Part shown: positions 51,388 through 62,470 of the stretch, piece by piece
How positions within the stretch are numbered: the stretch's first letter is position 1
Layout: every line of letters starts with the position of its first letter
Assembly (NCBI GenBank): GCA_946411635.1
Contig: CAMKES010000003.1
Coordinates: 1-64,000 of the forward strand
DNA from: an uncultured Clostridia bacterium
Lineage (GTDB): Bacteria > Bacillota > Clostridia > Christensenellales > CAG-138
Length of the DNA: 64,000 nucleotides
Direction of reading: 5' to 3'
Translations under genes and position numbers: made by a program
Notes under the pieces: generated by a model
The model's database searches: none
Told to the model about the DNA's origin: nothing
What the model saw: only the letters and a program-made list of their open reading frames with translations

Positions 51388-51660
51388 ATGAATATGATGA
51401 AAACACCGAAAGAGCTCGGCATGGAAATTGCCGCGAATCTGAAGAAGCTGCGAAAGCAGAGGAAGCTTTCGCAAAAAGCGCTTGCCGAAAAGGCGGGTAT
51501 CAGCTACGGCTCGATGAAGCGGTTCGAGCAGACCGGGGAGATTTCGCTCGAATCGCTGCTGAAGATCGCCGTCGTGCTTGGCGAAACTGCGTCGTTTGAA
51601 GCGATCTTCAAACCGACCGAAATCAAGTCCATTCAGGAGATCATCGATGGAAACCTTTAA
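51388..51660 (+). CDS. HipB-like XRE-family antitoxin
   Basis: A 90-aa DNA-binding protein with an HTH_3 domain (residues about 14-65; RKQRKLSQKALAEKAGISYG). It overlaps the hipA-like gene by 14 nt, the usual antitoxin-toxin layout. Start choice is open: the first ATG (51388) sits at the predicted transcript start, so either the mRNA is leaderless or translation starts at a downstream ATG such as 51421. Confidence 0.85.
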   Translation: MNMMKTPKELGMEIAANLKKLRKQRKLSQKALAEKAGISYGSMKRFEQTGEISLESLLKIAVVLGETASFEAIFKPTEIKSIQEIIDGNL

Positions 51661-52771
51661 GTCGTTGGATGTGCTCTATCACGGGCGAAAGGTCGGCACG
51701 CTCGCGCTGTATCAGAGATGGCTCGGCGCCTTCCAGTACGACGCGGATTGGCTTCTGGACGGCTTTTCGATCAGCCCGTTCACGCTGCCGCTGGACGGTC
51801 GCGTGTTCATTCCGAAATACGACCCGTTCGAGGGCTTGTTCGGCGTGTTCGCGGACAGCTTACCGGACGGCTGGGGACGGCTTTTAGTGGATCGGATGCT
51901 CCTCAAAGAGCACGAGGACCCGAATGCGATCAATGCGCTCCAGCGGCTGGTGATCGTCGGTGAGTCCGGCATGGGTGCGCTGACCTACCGCCCGTCCGTG
52001 CAGTGGCAGAGCGAGACCACGCAGAAGGAGCTGGACTACTATGCCGAGGAGTGCAGCCGCATTCTGAAATCCGCGTATTCCGAGAATCTGGACGAGCTGT
52101 TCCGGCTCGGCGGCTCCTCCGGCGGCGCGCGACCGAAGATCATGACGGAGGTCGACGGCGAGGATTGGATCATCAAGTTCCCGTCCGCGATCGACGGACC
52201 GGACATCGGACGCATCGAATATGAATACAGCCAATGCGCAAAGAAGTGCGGCATCGAAATTAGCGAAACGCGCCTGTTCCCGTCCAAGACCTGCGACGGG
52301 TATTTCGGCACAAAGCGCTTTGACCGGCGCGGAACCGAGCGCATTCACATGCTGTCCGCGTCGGCGCTGTTGGAGCATTCACATCGCCTGCCGACACTGG
52401 ACTACCATACGCTCATGAAGCTCACGCTTGCGCTGACGCAAAGCTACAAGGAGGTCGAGAAGCTGTACCGCCTGATGTGCTTCAACGTCTTTGCCCACAA
52501 CCGCGACGATCATGCCAAGAACTTTGCGTTCTTGTACGAACCGGAAACCGGCTGGCGTCTCGCCCCGGCATACGATCTAAACTACAGCAACAGCACCGGC
52601 GGCGAACACGCAACAATGATTAACGGCAACAGCGCGAATCCCTCGATTAAGGATCTCTACGCTGTCGCCGAAGCAATCGGGCTGTCGAAGGAAAGCTACA
52701 AACACATTACGGAGCAGGTGCAGGATGCGGTTGAGACGGATTTGAGCGATATTTACAAGAGAATCAGATAG
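51647..52771 (+). CDS. HipA-domain serine/threonine kinase-like toxin
   Basis: A 374-aa HipA-family protein. Couple-HipA N-terminal domain: GTLALYQRWLGAFQYD, FADSLPDGWG. HipA_C kinase part: GGSSGGARPKI (P-loop-like), DWIIKFPS, then FNVFAHNRDDHAKNFAFLYE with the catalytic NRDDHxKN motif and APAYDLNYS as the metal-binding Asp. HipA kinases phosphorylate aminoacyl-tRNA synthetases and cause dormancy. Base use is GC-rich, like the backbone, unlike the AT-rich operon that follows. Confidence 0.9.
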   Translation: METFKSLDVLYHGRKVGTLALYQRWLGAFQYDADWLLDGFSISPFTLPLDGRVFIPKYDPFEGLFGVFADSLPDGWGRLLVDRMLLKEHEDPNAINALQRLVIVGESGMGALTYRPSVQWQSETTQKELDYYAEECSRILKSAYSENLDELFRLGGSSGGARPKIMTEVDGEDWIIKFPSAIDGPDIGRIEYEYSQCAKKCGIEISETRLFPSKTCDGYFGTKRFDRRGTERIHMLSASALLEHSHRLPTLDYHTLMKLTLALTQSYKEVEKLYRLMCFNVFAHNRDDHAKNFAFLYEPETGWRLAPAYDLNYSNSTGGEHATMINGNSANPSIKDLYAVAEAIGLSKESYKHITEQVQDAVETDLSDIYKRIR

Positions 52772-52831: not shown

Positions 52832-52873
52832 ATACATTAGTTCACTATATTCTGTCGAATAGTGAGGATAAAG

Positions 52874-53995
52874 ATGAGTACACTGCAAAGTTTATTTAAA
52901 AGGAGCGGCATCACTTTATACCAAAACGAGAGCCTGGATCTTGATCATTATTATCAAGATCCATATCAAGATGCAGAGGATACTTTTCCTGATCAATATC
53001 AAATGGGAGAACCGTTTGAAAAAAAGAAACTCCCAAAACAGCAGAGAAAGATAGATGTTATCCGTGAAAGAGAATCAAATTTTAGCTATTTCATGGATGG
53101 TTCTCGTCGCACATATAAAATCGGTGATATTGTTTTAGAGAAGTCTAAAATTTATCCGGTTGTCGTTGCACAGGTTCGAGCAGGATGTGGCTTTAGAGGC
53201 AGTGATCGAAGAATCCATAAGCACTTAATCGAGCAAAAGAACCTTTTGCTCGTTACAAGTCGCTTTAACAATAGTGATTTCCAAGAACTGAAATATCGAA
53301 TCAAGAAAGGGAATCTTGCTCAAGAACTCAATTTGGATGTTATTCAGTATTCCTTTGATAAAACGAAAGATTTGGCCCCAACAAACGCTGCGATTGCAAA
53401 AGCCAATAGCATAATGCATGAAATGGAAATATCTATCCTGCAGCAGATGGTTAATTCAAAAGATCTTGATACCGAACACTTGTTGATTGTTGATGGACCA
53501 TTACAGTTTTTAAAGGAAGATACGGGAAAGAAATCATTCGCGGATTTGTTTTACAATGTTGTTGGCGTCTCAAAAACATTTGACCCAATGTTACCGATTT
53601 CTGAGCGGTCGCGCGGAGGCGCACAAGTTGGGTCACAATTATTGAGGTTGGAGTATGGGGAACGAACTCCTGTCTTCCATAAAAAGAATAGTAGAGGACG
53701 AGAATTTGGCTGCTGGTATTTGAGAATTCGTCCCAAATCTCAAGTAAGTAGTCCTCTTGAAGGAATCATTAAAGTTGAAAAGATGGCATGTGAAGAGGAT
53801 TTAGAGGATGGATTTGATTCAGATATTATTGACAATATTTCACACTGGCTAATAGAGGAAGGATGTCCAACCTGTCATGGAAAAGACGATAGATGGGCGG
53901 CGCATTTATATCCTGTTTATCTTACCGAAAAGATGGTGAAGGCAACTTTTATGGGCGATTTATCATTTATCCATCAGTTTAAAAAGGAGTTTTAG
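52874..53995 (+). CDS. NurA-like nuclease
   Basis: A 373-aa protein with features of the RNase H-like NurA fold. There is an acidic D-G-S site in FSYFMDGSRRTYKIGD and a second Asp in LLIVDGPLQFL. GVSKTF precedes a C-terminal stretch WAAHLYPVYLTEKMVKATF. NurA is the 5'-3' nuclease that works with HerA in archaeal end resection. The first 55 residues are acidic and unrelated. GAGG precedes the ATG at 52874. It is followed 11 nt later by the HerA-like gene, which supports the call. Fold assignment is by motif only. Confidence 0.68.
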   Translation: MSTLQSLFKRSGITLYQNESLDLDHYYQDPYQDAEDTFPDQYQMGEPFEKKKLPKQQRKIDVIRERESNFSYFMDGSRRTYKIGDIVLEKSKIYPVVVAQVRAGCGFRGSDRRIHKHLIEQKNLLLVTSRFNNSDFQELKYRIKKGNLAQELNLDVIQYSFDKTKDLAPTNAAIAKANSIMHEMEISILQQMVNSKDLDTEHLLIVDGPLQFLKEDTGKKSFADLFYNVVGVSKTFDPMLPISERSRGGAQVGSQLLRLEYGERTPVFHKKNSRGREFGCWYLRIRPKSQVSSPLEGIIKVEKMACEEDLEDGFDSDIIDNISHWLIEEGCPTCHGKDDRWAAHLYPVYLTEKMVKATFMGDLSFIHQFKKEF

Positions 53996-54006
53996 GGGGA
54001 ATCGCA

Positions 54007-55680
54007 ATGAAACAGATTATCGGGAAAGTATCCGCAACGGAAAAGAGCCCTTCAACTTGTGACGACTTTTCGTTTTGGTTGACAGATGAAACTATATTGA
54101 GTCCCTTTGATATTGTCCGTGTAACAAATCCGATTGATCAATCGGATACATATGGCGTTGTTCAAGATATCTTACATATTACAGATAGCCCTAGTCATAT
54201 TAGCAATTTTATCTCTTCCGATTTTGGAGATGCAACCGCTGAGTCAATGACAAGGAAACTCGGCCTATCTTATGCAAAGTGCTCTGTTATACATAATACA
54301 AAAGAAAATTATATGCCATTACCTGATGGGGCAATGGTTTCTACAACAGATGAAAACGACATCATGATTGCTTTAGGATTGGATTCGATCCCAGAAGAAT
54401 CTGCGATTCCTGCAGGATTGATGAAAGCATCGAATGATGTTATCGTTCCGATCAAATATAATGGTGATTTTATTGTAGGACCTGAAGGCGCACACGTTAA
54501 TGTTTCCGGCATTTCTGGTCTTGCAACAAAAACAAGTTACATAATGTTTCTGCTGAAGGCAATTCAGTATAAACTGGATAATGACGTAGCGATGATTATA
54601 ATGAACGTGAAAGGAGACGATCTGCTTCATATCCATCAGTCAAATGACGTTATTACAGATTCACAAAAAGCAGAGTGGGAAGCTTTGGGAGTTCCTTGTG
54701 AGCCGTTTGATAATGTGCGGTATTTCTATCCTTATTCTGGAAGAAGAGACTCTCTTTTTACAAATTCAGCGATTTCTCAAGAAGATCTTGCAGAACAATT
54801 CAATGATGGCATAGCTTCAACTTTTGCATATACGTTTGAGCACGATGTGGACAAGATCTCTATGCTTTTCTCAAACGTGGACGATCCCAATTGGACGATT
54901 GAATCTATTCTCAATTTTATTGAAACAAACCCGGAATTTAAGAGCATTTCTGATTGGGATGGGTTTAAGGAAAAGCTTAAGAGTTATGTTAACAAGGCAA
55001 ATGGGAAATCAACCGGCAGTGCTGAAATACCGGTGCAATCGTGGAGAAGGTTTAGCAGATTGATAAACAATTCAATCAACGACCCTCTATTTCAAAACTC
55101 CATTTCAGAGAAAAAAGAGCGTCATCAAGGATACCTATCTGATGCAATCATGAATATTGAAGGAGGGAGTGCTTTTGTAGTTGATATAGCCGGGCTAAAT
55201 GAGCAACTCCAATGCTTGGTCTTTGGAGATGTCATTCAATCAGTTTATGAATTGAAACATGGAGATTTTGATGATCTTTCGAGAAAGACGAGAAAGCAGA
55301 TTCCGAAGCGTATTATTATATTTGTTGATGAATTGAATAAATATGCCCCGTCGACTTCGGGAAAGAATTCGCCTTTGCTGTCAAATCTGCTTGATATTAC
55401 TGAGAGAGGTCGTTCAGAAGGAGTTATACTGTTTTCTGCAGAGCAGTTTAGAAGTGCAGTCCATGAAAGAATAAAAGGGAATTGTGGGACAAATGTTTAT
55501 GGCCGATCAAATGCAATTGAGATTTCAAGACCTGACTACAAGTTTGTTCCAAATGTTTATGCGAATATGATGACAAGGCTCAAAAAAGGAGATCTGATTG
55601 TCCAGCATCCCGTATTCAAGACTTTGTTGAAAATCACGTTCCCCTTCCCCTCATACAATCAAGGAGGTAGTAAAAAATGA
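54007..55680 (+). CDS. HerA-like ATPase
   Basis: A 557-aa protein. The N-terminal 60 residues look like a HAS barrel (FDIVRVTNPI, YGVVQDIL), followed by a DUF87/HerA-type motor. The Walker A position holds GISGLATKTS (residues 168-177), a variant without the usual GK[ST]. Walker B is RIIIFVDELNKYAP, with ILFSAEQFRSAVHERI as sensor/arginine region. HerA hexamers translocate DNA for NurA. GGGGG precedes the ATG. The stop overlaps the next start (ATGA). Confidence 0.75.
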   Translation: MKQIIGKVSATEKSPSTCDDFSFWLTDETILSPFDIVRVTNPIDQSDTYGVVQDILHITDSPSHISNFISSDFGDATAESMTRKLGLSYAKCSVIHNTKENYMPLPDGAMVSTTDENDIMIALGLDSIPEESAIPAGLMKASNDVIVPIKYNGDFIVGPEGAHVNVSGISGLATKTSYIMFLLKAIQYKLDNDVAMIIMNVKGDDLLHIHQSNDVITDSQKAEWEALGVPCEPFDNVRYFYPYSGRRDSLFTNSAISQEDLAEQFNDGIASTFAYTFEHDVDKISMLFSNVDDPNWTIESILNFIETNPEFKSISDWDGFKEKLKSYVNKANGKSTGSAEIPVQSWRRFSRLINNSINDPLFQNSISEKKERHQGYLSDAIMNIEGGSAFVVDIAGLNEQLQCLVFGDVIQSVYELKHGDFDDLSRKTRKQIPKRIIIFVDELNKYAPSTSGKNSPLLSNLLDITERGRSEGVILFSAEQFRSAVHERIKGNCGTNVYGRSNAIEISRPDYKFVPNVYANMMTRLKKGDLIVQHPVFKTLLKITFPFPSYNQGGSKK

Positions 55681-57275
55681 GCGACATCGTTGTAGGTAAG
55701 AATACTCTGGAAACCTTATCCACAGGCATGTATGTAGATCCTCGTACTATATACAGAGAGTACATTCAAAACGCTACAGACTCTATAGATTCTGCTGTAA
55801 GACAGGGAATTATAACCAAAGAGGAAGGCGAGATTCACATAAAGATAAATACGAAGTCCCGCGTCATTTCCATCAGAGATAATGGTGTTGGTATTCCTTG
55901 TGAAAAAGTATTAAATACACTTTCTGATGTTGGTAATTCCAGCAAGGATTATACAGAGAATCGTGGATTCCGGGGAATTGGTAGATTAGCTGGGCTAGCT
56001 TATTGTAAAACGCTCTATTTCATCACTTCAGCGAAAGGTGAATCTGTTGAAACAGTAATGAAATGGGACTGCAAAAAAATGAAAGAGCTGCTTTCACCCA
56101 GCAACAATTCTGCGGAGACACTGGTTGATGTGATTAAAGCCATTTCCGATATTTGCCCTCCCAGACCTGCAGAGGCAGACAAGCACTATTTTGAAGTACG
56201 CATGGAAGATGTGGACGATGATGAAAAAGGCAACATTTTAATAGACGAAAGTGATATCCGAAACTATCTTGCGATTGTTGCCCCTGTGGATTTTGATGGA
56301 CAAAAGTTTAGGCAGGCAAAAAAGATAAAAGAGTTTTATAAGGAAAAAGGTCAAATGATCTCAACTTATAGAATTTTCTTCGGAGATAGAAAACAGCCGG
56401 TTTATAAGCTCTACACGCAAAGATTAGATACCAACGTAGGCAGGGGAAAACAAAAAGAGGATGAGCATATAAAGGATGTCGAATTGCTTTATAAGACTAC
56501 TGAAAACGACGAACCGCTTTACATTGGTTGGCTCGCAATTACTGGCTTCTCTGGACAGATTAGAGATCCGAATTTAAGGGGAATCAGGTTGCGAAAGAGT
56601 AATATACAAATTGGTGACTCGCAAACTTTTGACAGCTACTTTCCTGCAGAAGGAAATAACGCAAATAAAATGTTTGCCGGAGAGATACATGTTCTTGACA
56701 GAGAGGTGATACCTAATTCGCAACGCGATGATTTTGAACCAAATGATTCTTTGTACGAATTAAAAAGAGCACTTTCTCAATGGGCAGGGGACATTAATAA
56801 ACAGTATCGTCGCGGGACTTCTCAAGCATCTTCTTCAATGAGAAAGATTGAAGAAGGTCTCAGGCAGCAACAGGAGATTGCTCAAAAAATAGAACGCGGC
56901 GGAGTGTCGTCAGATGCAAAAAAGGAAGAGCTGGCAAAAGAACTTGAAAAAGTTCAGAGAACAATTAAACGGGAAAGTGGAACGCTTCAAAGAGCGATAA
57001 AGAATAGCGGAGCGGACGAGAATCGACAAGAAAAGGTTAACGCTTTATTAGAGAAAGCTAGAAAATCCTCGACGGAAGCGGTTTCACTATCTAATAAAAT
57101 TGTTCAAGCAAAGTACGCAACGAAGGAAGATTTGCCTACAAGTTACTCAAGAGAAGAAAGGAAACTATATCAAAGAATCATTAGCGTAATAGATTCCTAT
57201 TTTGCAAATGATCCAAAGATTGCGGAAAACCTCCGTGAAAAGATTAAGCAAGAGCTAAGTGTAAAGAAAAAATGA
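55677..57275 (+). CDS. GHKL (Hsp90/MutL-like) ATPase with coiled coil
   Basis: A 532-aa protein. Bergerat-fold ATP site: N box REYIQNATDSID (Glu28, Asn32, Asp35), G1 box IRDNGVGIP (Asp68) and lid/G2 GFRGIGRLAG. A middle domain resembles the Hsp90/MutL transducer (GEIHVLDREVIPNSQRDDF). A C-terminal charged coiled coil follows (about 375-480). AAGGAGG precedes the ATG. Overlaps of 4 nt on both sides bind it tightly to the HerA-like and radical SAM genes. The role is unknown; an ATP-driven clamp or switch is the usual action of this fold. Confidence 0.85.
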   Translation: MSDIVVGKNTLETLSTGMYVDPRTIYREYIQNATDSIDSAVRQGIITKEEGEIHIKINTKSRVISIRDNGVGIPCEKVLNTLSDVGNSSKDYTENRGFRGIGRLAGLAYCKTLYFITSAKGESVETVMKWDCKKMKELLSPSNNSAETLVDVIKAISDICPPRPAEADKHYFEVRMEDVDDDEKGNILIDESDIRNYLAIVAPVDFDGQKFRQAKKIKEFYKEKGQMISTYRIFFGDRKQPVYKLYTQRLDTNVGRGKQKEDEHIKDVELLYKTTENDEPLYIGWLAITGFSGQIRDPNLRGIRLRKSNIQIGDSQTFDSYFPAEGNNANKMFAGEIHVLDREVIPNSQRDDFEPNDSLYELKRALSQWAGDINKQYRRGTSQASSSMRKIEEGLRQQQEIAQKIERGGVSSDAKKEELAKELEKVQRTIKRESGTLQRAIKNSGADENRQEKVNALLEKARKSSTEAVSLSNKIVQAKYATKEDLPTSYSREERKLYQRIISVIDSYFANDPKIAENLREKIKQELSVKKK

Positions 57276-58960
57276 GGAAGATTCTTCTTGTAGAACCTGC
57301 ATATAAAAACAAATATCCGCCGATGGGGCTTATGAAAATAAGCACCTATCATAAAATGCTGGGTGATGATGTTACTTTTGTCAAAGGGATAGATGCTGTT
57401 CTCGCAATGAAAGCATGGGATAGGATATATATCACCACTCTATTTACTTTTGACTTTGATATAACGGTTGATACAATAAATCATTACAAAATGTATGCTG
57501 ATGATTTAGATAGCATTTTTGTCGGCGGAATAATGTCATCATTGATGCCAGAAAAAGTAATGGCAGCAACCGGGCTCCATAAAAAGAACATTTTGATAGG
57601 TTTATTTACCGATACTTCAGTTGTTGGGGACGATAATGATATAAATGTAGATCTATTACCGCTGGATTATGATCTTTTAGAACAAATATCATATAAATAT
57701 CCCGCTGGAGATAATTATTTCGCTTATACTTCAAGGGGATGCCCAAATCATTGTAAGTTCTGTGCGGTTCCGATATTGGAACCTCAGTTTACTGTTACAA
57801 ATAATATCGTACAGCAAATTGAAAAGATTAATCAAAAATATGGGCCGAAGCAAAACCTGTTGATGTTGGACAACAATATTTTGAATGCCCCGAATCTGTC
57901 GGAGATTATTGATTCTCTTTGTCAAGCAGGGTTTTATCGAGGAGCAAAATATGAGAATCCTGGCGATTATAACATTGTGTTGATGCGTTATCACAATGGA
58001 GATAGAGGCGCATTTTTAGATAAGCGGTTGCAGGATTATTTGATATCGTTTAAGAAGAGAATTAAATCTGAGAGCACACTGGAAACTTATCTACAGATTG
58101 TAATAGATGCTGAAGATGCTAAAGATTATGCACAGTATATGCTTGATCATGAAGCTCAGCTAAGACCTATTATAGAAAAATATCGTAGTAAAGCAACCAG
58201 CAACAGATATATTGATTTTAATCAAGGTGTTGACGGTAGGCGGATAAATGATGATACAATGGCTCAATTGGCAAGACTTGCAATTCGTCCTCTGAGGATT
58301 GCTTTTGATGACATTGCCTATGAGAAAATATATGTGAATGCAGTACATACTGCATTCAATCATGGGATAAAGGAGCTGTCAAACTATATCCTTTTTAACT
58401 TCAATGATTACCCGGAGGATCTCTATAAGCGATTGGAGATTAATATTAAGCTTAACGTAGAGCTAGGAATTCAGATTTTTTCTTTCCCTATGAGATTTGC
58501 TCCAATAAACAGAACGGATAGATCCTATGTTGGCAAGCATTGGAAAAGGAAGTATTTACAGGCTATCTCTGCCATTTTACATGTAACAAAAGGCGTTGTT
58601 GCTGCTGGATCTGATTTTTTCTACAAAGCCTTTGGCAAGGACGAGAACGAATACAGGGAGATCCTTGCAATGCCGAGAGATATGATCATGTACAGGTCCC
58701 ACTATGAGGAGACTGGTGAGACAAATGAATGGCGAGAACTATATCATAGTTTAACTGCAGAACAAAAAGAAGCTTTGGTTGATTTTGTATCGTTATCAAA
58801 TGAGGAGATCAAAGAAAAACCTTCTCCAAAGGGGTTAGAAAGCATCATTCCCTTTTATCTGCTAAAGTTCCGACCGAGCGCAAAAGTAAAAGAAAAAAGG
58901 GATAGGGTTAGCGAAAATGATGCTTATGCTTTTATAGCTGATAGCATAGAGATAGAGTAA
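57272..58960 (+). CDS. Cobalamin-type radical SAM protein
   Basis: A 562-aa protein. The N-terminal 130 residues form a B12-binding-like Rossmann domain (KILLVEPAYKNKYPPMGLMK). The radical SAM cluster motif is CPNHCKFC (Cys157, 161, 164). A long C-terminal region (about 330-562) is unassigned. The B12-ligand DxHxxG motif is not evident, so cobalamin may not bind. A radical SAM enzyme in a nuclease/ATPase operon suggests modification of DNA, RNA, a nucleotide or a peptide. Confidence 0.85.
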   Translation: MRKILLVEPAYKNKYPPMGLMKISTYHKMLGDDVTFVKGIDAVLAMKAWDRIYITTLFTFDFDITVDTINHYKMYADDLDSIFVGGIMSSLMPEKVMAATGLHKKNILIGLFTDTSVVGDDNDINVDLLPLDYDLLEQISYKYPAGDNYFAYTSRGCPNHCKFCAVPILEPQFTVTNNIVQQIEKINQKYGPKQNLLMLDNNILNAPNLSEIIDSLCQAGFYRGAKYENPGDYNIVLMRYHNGDRGAFLDKRLQDYLISFKKRIKSESTLETYLQIVIDAEDAKDYAQYMLDHEAQLRPIIEKYRSKATSNRYIDFNQGVDGRRINDDTMAQLARLAIRPLRIAFDDIAYEKIYVNAVHTAFNHGIKELSNYILFNFNDYPEDLYKRLEINIKLNVELGIQIFSFPMRFAPINRTDRSYVGKHWKRKYLQAISAILHVTKGVVAAGSDFFYKAFGKDENEYREILAMPRDMIMYRSHYEETGETNEWRELYHSLTAEQKEALVDFVSLSNEEIKEKPSPKGLESIIPFYLLKFRPSAKVKEKRDRVSENDAYAFIADSIEIE

Positions 58961-58980
58961 AAGAAAGGGATTTAGCACCA

Positions 58981-59049
58981 ATGTCATTTTTGATTGCAGT
59001 CCACGTTAATGAAGGAATAGTGTTGGCAAGTGATCGGCGCATCACATAA
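58981..59049 (+). pseudogene. Decayed proteasome-like (Ntn hydrolase) fragment
   Basis: A 22-codon ORF 20 nt after the radical SAM stop, with AAAGGGA upstream. It reads like the N terminus of a proteasome beta/HslV-type Ntn hydrolase, with Ser2 in place of the usual Thr nucleophile and GIVLASDRRIT. It then stops. The next bases in another frame (HNDAYFIERLYV) could be the continuation after a frameshift. The remainder is gone by the TIGR04255 gene at 59152. Confidence 0.6.
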
Positions 59050-59151
59050 TGATGCATATTTTATTGAGCGATTGTATGTGTGACTTGACAACAAGGGCAA
59101 AGAGAGAGCATATTAGTTTTATGGATTCTTTTAATAATGGGAGGATACGAA

Positions 59152-59937
59152 ATGGCCAGATACGATAATGTAAAATATACGAATTCTTTTCTCAATCAAG
59201 TAATTCTGCGGTTTGATTTTTTACAATTTGCTTCTACCAACCGTGTCTTTACAGATGATATTGAAAAGAGTATTCTTCGTTTCTTTCCTCGGAGAGGGAT
59301 GGATCAAATAATGAGGTTTAACTCTATTAATGTCGTTTTTGATTCCAATAATCCTTCCACTCCGAATGCGCAGAGAGAGATTCAAGAGGGGATTCAAAGG
59401 GAGTACTATTCTCTTAACCAGAAAAACAAGTTGGTGCTATCTAATAAGTATCTGATTATTGAGATAAACGAATATTCAAATTTTGAAGAGTTACAGCAGT
59501 GGCTCCAGGGAATTGTTATACCTTTTTATTTAGAAAATCAGCTGACCGTTATCCGAGCAGGGATTCGCTATATCAATATTTTGAAACCAGACAGAGTAAA
59601 AATCAGAAAGAATTTGTTTTCTCCAGAAATCGCAGCGACTATTAATGTAAATGAGTTTCAAGAAAGCGGAGAAATATCCTTAATTCGATCGATGCATATG
59701 ACAGAATACCTTGTAAATGGGATGCGACTAAACTTTAGATATGGTCTTTTTAACCCGCAATATCCGAATAGGCTTCTAGATAATAGTTTCGCGTTAGATT
59801 ATGATTGCTATAGTGAAGAGCCGATCGAAGTTGCAGATGGATTGCTTCGTTGCGTAGAAAAGGGGCATAATGCAATACAATTGCTCTTTGAATCCTCAAT
59901 TACAGAAGCACTCCGGAAGGTGATGCGTAATGAATGA
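59152..59937 (+). CDS. TIGR04255-family protein
   Basis: A 261-aa protein. The N terminus MARYDNVKYTNSFLNQVILR and the pattern IRAGIRYINIL resemble the sporadically distributed TIGR04255 family, which has no known function. GGGAGG lies 6-7 nt before the ATG at 59152; an ATG at 59137 would include the ribosome site. It probably belongs to the operon that starts at 52874, though a weak TTGACA-type promoter may exist at 59098. Confidence 0.7.
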   Translation: MARYDNVKYTNSFLNQVILRFDFLQFASTNRVFTDDIEKSILRFFPRRGMDQIMRFNSINVVFDSNNPSTPNAQREIQEGIQREYYSLNQKNKLVLSNKYLIIEINEYSNFEELQQWLQGIVIPFYLENQLTVIRAGIRYINILKPDRVKIRKNLFSPEIAATINVNEFQESGEISLIRSMHMTEYLVNGMRLNFRYGLFNPQYPNRLLDNSFALDYDCYSEEPIEVADGLLRCVEKGHNAIQLLFESSITEALRKVMRNE

Positions 59938-60157
59938 TTATCTTAAAAGCATTAGCAATTTGGAAAAGGGTATTACAGCATTAAAAGTTGAATCCTCAGA
60001 TATTATTGAGGGAACCCCGATTGTATCGGCACCTTTAACTCCGCCATTGATTACAGATGCGGATACTATTGGAGTGCAAAACCAAAACAATGAGCTCCCT
60101 GCTGAGTATCTGACCCCACGAACAATAAAAGTGAGAAAATACCGACTAAAGAAGTAA
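59930..60157 (+). CDS. Small hypothetical protein
   Basis: A 75-aa protein that overlaps the TIGR04255 gene by 8 nt. It is Pro/Thr-rich in the middle (PIVSAPLTPPLITDAD) with a basic tail (IKVRKYRLKK). No family recognised. The overlap and spacing argue that it is a real member of the operon. Confidence 0.6.
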   Translation: MNDYLKSISNLEKGITALKVESSDIIEGTPIVSAPLTPPLITDADTIGVQNQNNELPAEYLTPRTIKVRKYRLKK

Positions 60158-60161
60158 TAAA

Positions 60162-60743
60162 ATGTCTACTTATTCAAAAGCCATTGTTCCTGAAAACGCA
60201 AGGCCAATTATGCAGGGGGATATATATAAAAACGTCAAATACAGCTACATCGATTCTGAAGACGATGCAGGAGTAAATGTAGTCGAGTTTGAGTTCCCTC
60301 TTGCAGTGATAATCAGCCAAGCATGTGATGCTATCTCTATGGAGCAAATAATCACAGAACAAAAAGGAAAGCCTGCCAAGTTTATGCCATCAATTTTGCT
60401 CTGCCCTATATATGATAGGACAGTTGCGAAAAATGGGGATCACCTTATTGATGCGTTTAGCAAGCTGGATTTAGTTCTGGTAAAGGAAGATATATATCAT
60501 AGCGACGATTATAAAGTTGCTCAACGGGATTGGCACTATAGATTACATGCCTTAGAAGTCGTTATAGATGGTAAAGGAGTAATCAATAATGCTATCATTG
60601 ATTTCAAACATTACTTTACGGTCCCCATGTCATATCTTGTGAAGCACAAAGAAGATCGTCTTTTCCATCTTGATGACTTGTATGCAGAGCAACTGTCTTT
60701 GAAATTTGCAACTTTTATTTCTAGAGTTGCAATTCCAGATTGA
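60162..60743 (+). CDS. Hypothetical protein with SQxCD motif
   Basis: A 193-aa protein. MQGDIYKNVKYSYID and FPLAVIISQACDAISMEQII suggest a small family with a G-D-I-x and S-Q-x-C-D signature that I have seen near defence-type genes but cannot name. Cys and Asp of SQACD could be catalytic or metal-binding. It starts 4 nt after the small gene and is followed by the operon terminator. Confidence 0.6.
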   Translation: MSTYSKAIVPENARPIMQGDIYKNVKYSYIDSEDDAGVNVVEFEFPLAVIISQACDAISMEQIITEQKGKPAKFMPSILLCPIYDRTVAKNGDHLIDAFSKLDLVLVKEDIYHSDDYKVAQRDWHYRLHALEVVIDGKGVINNAIIDFKHYFTVPMSYLVKHKEDRLFHLDDLYAEQLSLKFATFISRVAIPD

Positions 60744-61727: not shown

Positions 61728-61783
61728 ACTCAAAATCCGTTGATGGCGACATCGTGTGGGTTCGAGTCCCACCACCGGCACCA
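61728..61783 (+). pseudogene. 3' half of host tRNA-Leu(CAA) and right attachment site
   Basis: ACTCAAAATCC (61728-61738) repeats the core at 36659-36669. The following 45 nt complete the anticodon stem, variable arm, T arm, acceptor and CCA of the split host tRNA. Upstream bases differ from the tRNA, placing the right element border at or near 61728-61738. Confidence 0.85.
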
Positions 61784-61965: not shown

Positions 61966-61985
61966 GAGTCCCACCACCGGCACCA
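61966..61985 (+). repeat. Extra tRNA-Leu 3'-end copy
   Basis: 20 nt equal to the T-arm/acceptor/CCA end of tRNA-Leu, 200 nt after the first copy. The segment between starts with the inverse of the T arm (61833-61841), so this is a tRNA-derived scar or repeat. A terminator-like hairpin (CGCCGCG/CGCGGCG plus T run, 61989-62024) follows. Confidence 0.7.
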
Positions 61986-62223: not shown

Positions 62224-62370
62224 GCACCCCTCCCATGTGAAAAAGTCCTTATATTATGGGCTTTTTCGGCTTCTCGCACACGAATACCTGCTCGAGCCGT
62301 CTCTTCATTCATGCTCATCCAGTCGATTTTCGACCATTTACAGTAAAAGCCCCATCCCGACCGACTCTGA

Positions 62371-62470
62371 AATCGTGTGCGAGATGGGGGTAATCGTGTG
62401 CGAGATGGGAGTAATCGTGTGCGAGATGGGGTAATCGTGCGCGAGATGGGGTAATCGTGTGCGAGATGGG
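62371..62470. repeat. Five-copy tandem repeat, about 20 bp
   Basis: Five head-to-tail units of AATCGTGTGCGAGATGGGGT (20-21 nt, one to two changes each) lie 22 nt beyond the stop of the leftward MFS gene. There are no spacers, so it is not CRISPR. It is iteron-like, function unknown. Confidence 0.9.

Follow-up and report, generated by a model that had tools for sequence, protein, structure and literature searches.

Between two clusters of genes that resemble anti-virus defence genes, a contig of an uncultured Clostridia bacterium (CAMKES010000003.1, positions 1 to 64,000, the whole 64,000-nucleotide stretch analysed here and referred to as the window) carries a short reading frame that looks like the start of a proteasome-type peptidase. 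This raises the question, “is this the remains of a real peptidase gene, and did that gene belong to the system beside which it lies?” The original prediction answered yes to both parts. Our comparisons support the first answer and speak against the second.

The gap and the gene clusters on either side of it

The gap measures 191 nt (58961-59151), between the radical SAM stop at 58960 and the TIGR04255 gene, which starts at 59152. Its sole open reading frame with a plausible start lies on the forward strand at 58981-59049, begins 20 nt past the radical SAM stop, and encodes 22 residues, MSFLIAVHVNEGIVLASDRRIT, followed by TAA. A 22-codon frame with its own ribosome site had been predicted and is present, with the sequence AAAGGGA about 10 nt 5' of the ATG as a moderate site; the intact relatives described below have stronger sites of the AAGGAG type. 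That the frame lies inside an operon, as was also proposed, is doubtful: it stands at the junction of two modules and is followed by hairpin-like and then promoter-like sequence (Table 1). The hairpin is a consensus match that carries no evidence of function (one found in the pattern scan versus 0.3 expected in shuffles), and the promoter-like sites of the region, six found versus 1.9 expected, are likewise consensus matches only.

Table 1. Features of the window around the peptidase remnant (window coordinates)
Feature	Position	Strand	Evidence
NurA-like protein, first of four core genes	52862..53995	+	Collinear with L002; homologues precede HerA in L014, L017, L124, L125
HerA-like ATPase, core	54007..55680	+	Collinear in L002, L014, L017, L124, L125; weak PADLOC mad8 match
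HSP90-like ATPase, core	55677..57275	+	Pfam HATPase_c_3, E 1.2e-10
Radical SAM protein, core, C-terminus complete	57272..58960	+	Pfam Radical_SAM, E 1.6e-6
22-codon remnant, N-terminal end of a proteasome-like Ntn hydrolase (by sequence comparison)	58981..59049	+	Family HMM columns 1-22
Second frame, ...NDAYFIERLYV*	59021..59083	+	No homology found
Terminator-like hairpin GCATCA-CATAA-TGATGC with T-rich tail; spans the break, stop codon in loop	59039..59055	+	Pattern scan
Promoter-like site TTGACA, 18 nt, CATATT, 5' of TIGR04255 gene	59085..59114	+	Consensus match 10/12
TIGR04255 protein, first cassette gene	59152..59937	+	NCBIfam TIGR04255, E 1.9e-16
Small linker protein of cassette	59930..60157	+	Small ORF at same place in L022-L025
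193-aa cassette protein	60162..60743	+	Homologues in same order in phages and plasmid

On the 5' side lies a core of four genes (52862-58960), in which the HerA-like gene overlaps the HSP90-like gene, and the latter the radical SAM gene, at their ends. The core is collinear with a second locus, L002, at 69% DNA identity and ends, as there, in the radical SAM gene, whose L002 homologue is 74% identical and of nearly equal length. The same four-gene order was found in four further loci (L014, L017, L124, and L125), and its spread takes in several Clostridia-type genomes and one phage scaffold. The first gene, whose product had no Pfam match, was named NurA from its position and from the annotation of a Marinitoga phage, in which a radical SAM relative adjoins genes annotated as HerA and nuclease. 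No PADLOC model fits the core apart from the weak match of the HerA-like protein, and a literature search for a four-gene NurA-HerA-HSP90-like-radical SAM system found nothing; the set has the appearance of a defence or mobile system not described before. A HipA-like gene (51578-52771, Pfam HipA_C) stands directly 5' of the core. In a degenerate copy, L016:5187-6978, a shortened NurA-like frame runs into a shortened radical SAM frame, and the HerA-like and HSP90-like genes are missing. On alphaproteobacterial plasmids (L012 and L013) the radical SAM family of the core occurs in another arrangement, where its member is accompanied by a DGQHR-domain protein, a PIN-like protein and two HSP90-like ATPases.

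The three genes on the 3' side (59152-60743) form an independently mobile cassette, which recurs alone in genomes (L022-L024, with a more divergent version in L035), in phage contigs (L036-L040) and on a plasmid of Methylocystis (L025). Negative results for TIGR04255 from the family-model search are weak because that search did not list the window's own copy, and relatives were afterwards searched for with an alignment. Nothing was found in the literature on TIGR04255 in defence. About 1 kb 3' of the cassette, an exact 20-base direct repeat resembling a tRNA 3' end, GAGTCCCACCACCGGCACCA, occurs at 61764-61783 and 61966-61985, 202 bases apart; these may be remnants of attachment sites, and ARAGORN found no tRNA there. 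Further on, at 62366-62470, a 20-21-base unit (ATCGTGTGCGAGATGGGGTA) is present in five tandem copies.

Homology to proteasome-like Ntn hydrolases

Intact relatives were reached by scanning 2.9 million viral contigs with a degenerate DNA pattern based on the fragment. The matches were two overlapping phage contigs, L041 and L042, which encode an intact protein of 237 residues, P0009, with the N terminus MSFIIAVYVNEGMVLASDSRVSYNN. Of the 103 genomes searched from the bacterial family to which the window belongs, 26 contained relatives of P0009; none was found in the window's own genome. Against a profile of 20 full-length relatives, built with the window left out, the fragment scored 24.3 bits (E = 1.2e-6 over the six-frame window), covering profile columns 1-22 with start methionine on start methionine, while the best of 20 shuffled windows reached 6.4 bits. 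The reading of the frame as the first strand of a proteasome-type Ntn hydrolase is borne out by this result. Because P0009 had been found with a pattern derived from the fragment, it was left out of a control profile, against which the fragment scored 21.3 bits (E = 1.1e-5); leaving out the two closest relatives gave a modest 15.4 bits (E = 6.8e-4).

The DNA agrees with the protein comparison. Homology to Ntn genes spans the fragment, with none of 300 shuffles as good, and the phage gene has the same base at 47 of 66 positions. Codon positions 1, 2, and 3 account for 6, 0, and 13 of the differences, which indicates that the fragment and the phage gene diverged as coding genes. At the protein level the fragment is most like the mobile copies, sharing 16 of 22 residues with P0009 and 14 with the protein of a type I restriction operon (L095), though one chromosomal copy also reaches 14. 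A two-sequence profile, run over the whole of the window's own genome, matched at 58981-59049 only (E = 4.6e-5) and found nothing beyond that match among 245 genomes of the class.

Chance similarity has next to no probability as an explanation. Twenty-two residues are very short; the Pfam score taken alone is weak (for the 22-mer Pfam lists a single family, Proteasome, at E = 0.11, and NCBIfam a single model, archaeal proteasome beta, at E = 0.084); and searches with the 22-mer yield chance matches in other genomes at E of about 0.03-0.07. One such match from a direct search of 391 genomes, L028, was inspected closely and set aside as chance, lying in a ferredoxin-reductase-like frame. Searches of plasmid and phage collections gave no match to either the 22-mer or P0009. 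The family profile, the shuffle controls, the uniqueness of the match in its own genome and the pattern of divergence by codon position all contradict a chance origin. As judged from sequence comparison, 58981-59049 is confirmed as the N-terminal end of a proteasome-like Ntn-hydrolase gene, and as a genuine remnant.

Proteasome homologues share an active site made up of Thr1 or Ser1, Asp17, Lys33, and Gly47, the last forming the oxyanion hole (Fuchs, Alva, Lupas 2021, PMC8665760). Across the alignment of the P0009 family Met1, Ser2, Asp18, Lys47, and Gly61 are invariant; with the initiator methionine removed from the count, Ser1 and Asp17 are numbered as in the proteasome, and in P0009 Lys and Gly lie 14 apart, as Lys33 and Gly47 do. 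In the intact protein, these conserved positions suggest, removal of the initiator methionine would make serine residue 1 and the N-terminal nucleophile, working with Asp17, the Lys33 equivalent, and the Gly47 equivalent of the oxyanion hole. Ser2 and Asp18 of the remnant fall on the catalytic Ser1 and Asp17 positions. Ser2, which had been proposed as a possible nucleophile, is the expected one, with a Met-Ser start in all 20 aligned relatives; two phage relatives (L127:8510-9163 and L128:5532-6176) begin with Met-Thr, making a threonine nucleophile likely in them. The Lys33 and Gly47 equivalents and the complete fold are missing from the remnant, so it cannot be an enzyme.

The wider family membership of P0009 points the same way. 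It matches Pfam Proteasome at E 1.3e-4 with 22.1 bits, just under the curated cut-off of 22.4, and a seven-sequence family profile retrieved proteasome beta chains from the PDB (E = 1.8e-4); a single-sequence AlphaFold model (pLDDT 34) was too poor to read the fold. On these matches and the conserved positions, we regard the P0009 family as proteasome-like Ntn hydrolases. It resembles HslV and the 20S proteasome beta subunit (Pfam PF00227) in remote sequence similarity and in its catalytic positions. It differs in that the remnant's relatives score at or under the Pfam cut-off, and the window's own genome has a separate, intact gene of the HslV type (G000:C2:326815-327336). When HslV and the P0009 family were compared profile to profile, only the first 22 columns, the N-terminal strand, aligned, at low probability. 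The family also shares features with the 22 further proteasome homologues described by Fuchs, Alva, Lupas (2021, PMC8665760), some of them phage-borne and some forming Firmicute clusters, with cluster names such as FC1-FC5, PPH, and AAH: the remnant's family has the Ntn signature, the Ser/Thr1, Asp17, Lys33, and Gly47 positions filled, no propeptide, and an occurrence in Clostridia-type bacteria and their phages. The window differs from them in keeping 22 codons only.

The break and the neighbouring system

Ntn homology ends abruptly at codon 22. Neither profile nor DNA comparison found a 3' remainder in the 105 bases at 59047-59151 or in the rest of the window, and a search of the window's own genome turned up none elsewhere. 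The gene is broken, as had been stated, but the second frame that was proposed as its continuation (NDAYFIERLYV, with its stop at 59083), although it exists, has no homologue or profile support and gave no match beyond chance to the Ntn family or to anything else. A candidate duplication of the radical SAM tail past the break (AATGATGC...TTTTAT, like the gene's own 3' end) was rejected, being equalled in 188 of 2000 shuffles.

The sharp end of homology adjoining a small hairpin, in a draft assembly of 26 contigs, might suggest that the gene is intact in the cell and that a piece of the contig is missing or misjoined. We consider such an artefact improbable, given that the TIGR04255 cassette follows the break complete and in its normal order and that the search of the own genome yielded no separate Ntn 3' part. 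A functional small peptide or leader, acting for example in coupling or attenuation ahead of the TIGR04255 genes, is less probable again. The ribosome site of the 22-codon frame, the hairpin over its stop codon, and the promoter-like site 3' of the hairpin would suit that role; however, peptidase ancestry accounts for the sequence of the frame, and the other TIGR04255 cassettes have no equivalent frame 5' of them. A reading as an RNA element was rejected, since folding is unremarkable (z = -0.30) and no Rfam family matched at threshold. The remnant is almost certainly a dead fragment, which would give rise to at most a 22-residue by-product peptide.

Did the peptidase belong as a rule to the NurA-HerA-HSP90-like-radical SAM system, and has this strain alone lost it? 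The original prediction held that an intact version of the system would have a peptidase gene at this place. The remnant has a plausible ribosome site and begins 20 nt past the radical SAM stop, as expected of a co-transcribed gene, and an intact relative in L095 is placed in the same way 3' of hsdM. Homologous loci argue against it: no Ntn gene is present in four complete core loci (L014, L017, L124, and L125), in the degenerate L016, or in other radical SAM loci, nor is there Ntn sequence in L002 up to the end of its contig, a partial test only because that contig ends about 190 bases past the radical SAM gene. The ten TIGR04255 cassettes (L022-L025 and L035-L040) also have no Ntn gene, and a search of the entire bacterial family with both queries found the core and an Ntn gene nowhere adjoining. 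Homologous loci with no peptidase had been named beforehand as grounds for refuting the prediction; they contradict the claim about the system, and we judge regular membership unlikely. The other ground named, a fragment unlike Ntn hydrolases, does not apply.

Intact relatives as passengers and the origin of the remnant

Intact copies of the gene are passengers in other contexts. The closest intact relative in the bacterial family, L095, is 49% identical to P0009 and lies within a type I restriction operon, flanked by hsdM and hsdS; this is a different operon from that of the window, in the same bacterial family. No function-suggesting genomic context was reported for the proteasome homologues described earlier (Fuchs, Alva, Lupas 2021, PMC8665760), a result from which the placement of L095 departs. 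The order at L095:6826-16806 is SoFic-type Fic, HsdM, Ntn hydrolase, HsdS, PDC-M37A, PDC-M37B, HsdR. PDC-M37A and PDC-M37B are a PADLOC candidate pair, the latter being an AAA+ protein, and the Ntn protein itself matched no PADLOC model. In the phage contig L041 the Ntn gene lies between terminase and portal genes, adjoining a DUF4238 gene on the opposite strand (L041:8714-10891, a cargo pair). Other copies from the bacterial family are further removed, with about 26-35% identity to P0009; in the five contexts that were read, the gene lies on the chromosome, close 3' of a uvrC-like gene and phosphatase- or kinase-like genes (uvrC-Cof-ROK, names taken from sequence starts only).

The explanation that we consider highly probable is that what survives at 58981-59049 is the 5' end of a proteasome-like Ntn-hydrolase gene, which encoded about 240 residues and was truncated at codon 22 by rearrangement. 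Genes of this type travel as phage cargo, and at least one type I restriction operon carries one too. A mobile copy may have landed behind the radical SAM gene and once stood directly 3' of it, placed so that it could be translated. Rearrangement at codon 22 would then have removed about 90% of the gene and left it truncated at the junction with the TIGR04255 cassette; the simplest such events are a deletion or the cassette's own arrival. The ancestral order is an inference because no locus was found with an intact peptidase behind this radical SAM gene. Against this explanation stand the remnant's length of only 22 residues, the origin of the contig in a 26-contig assembly, and the discovery of the phage homologue through a pattern written from the fragment, though the profile without P0009 still matches.

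The remnant itself is ordinary gene decay. Its value is as a pointer, having led to phage copies and to an intact gene in a type I restriction operon where an AAA+ ATPase is also encoded. We tentatively suggest that this mobile proteasome-like branch could consist of peptidases associated with defence, which are added to anti-phage operons as accessory effectors. Candidate cases, put forward with the same reserve, would be the copy between hsdM and hsdS (with an AAA+ gene), the phage copy beside DUF4238, and the copy formerly behind the window's core. The presence of intact relatives in a restriction operon and in phages makes a role in phage-host conflict testable. In L127 and L128, the two phage relatives with a Met-Thr start, the Ntn genes lie near tail or lysis genes.
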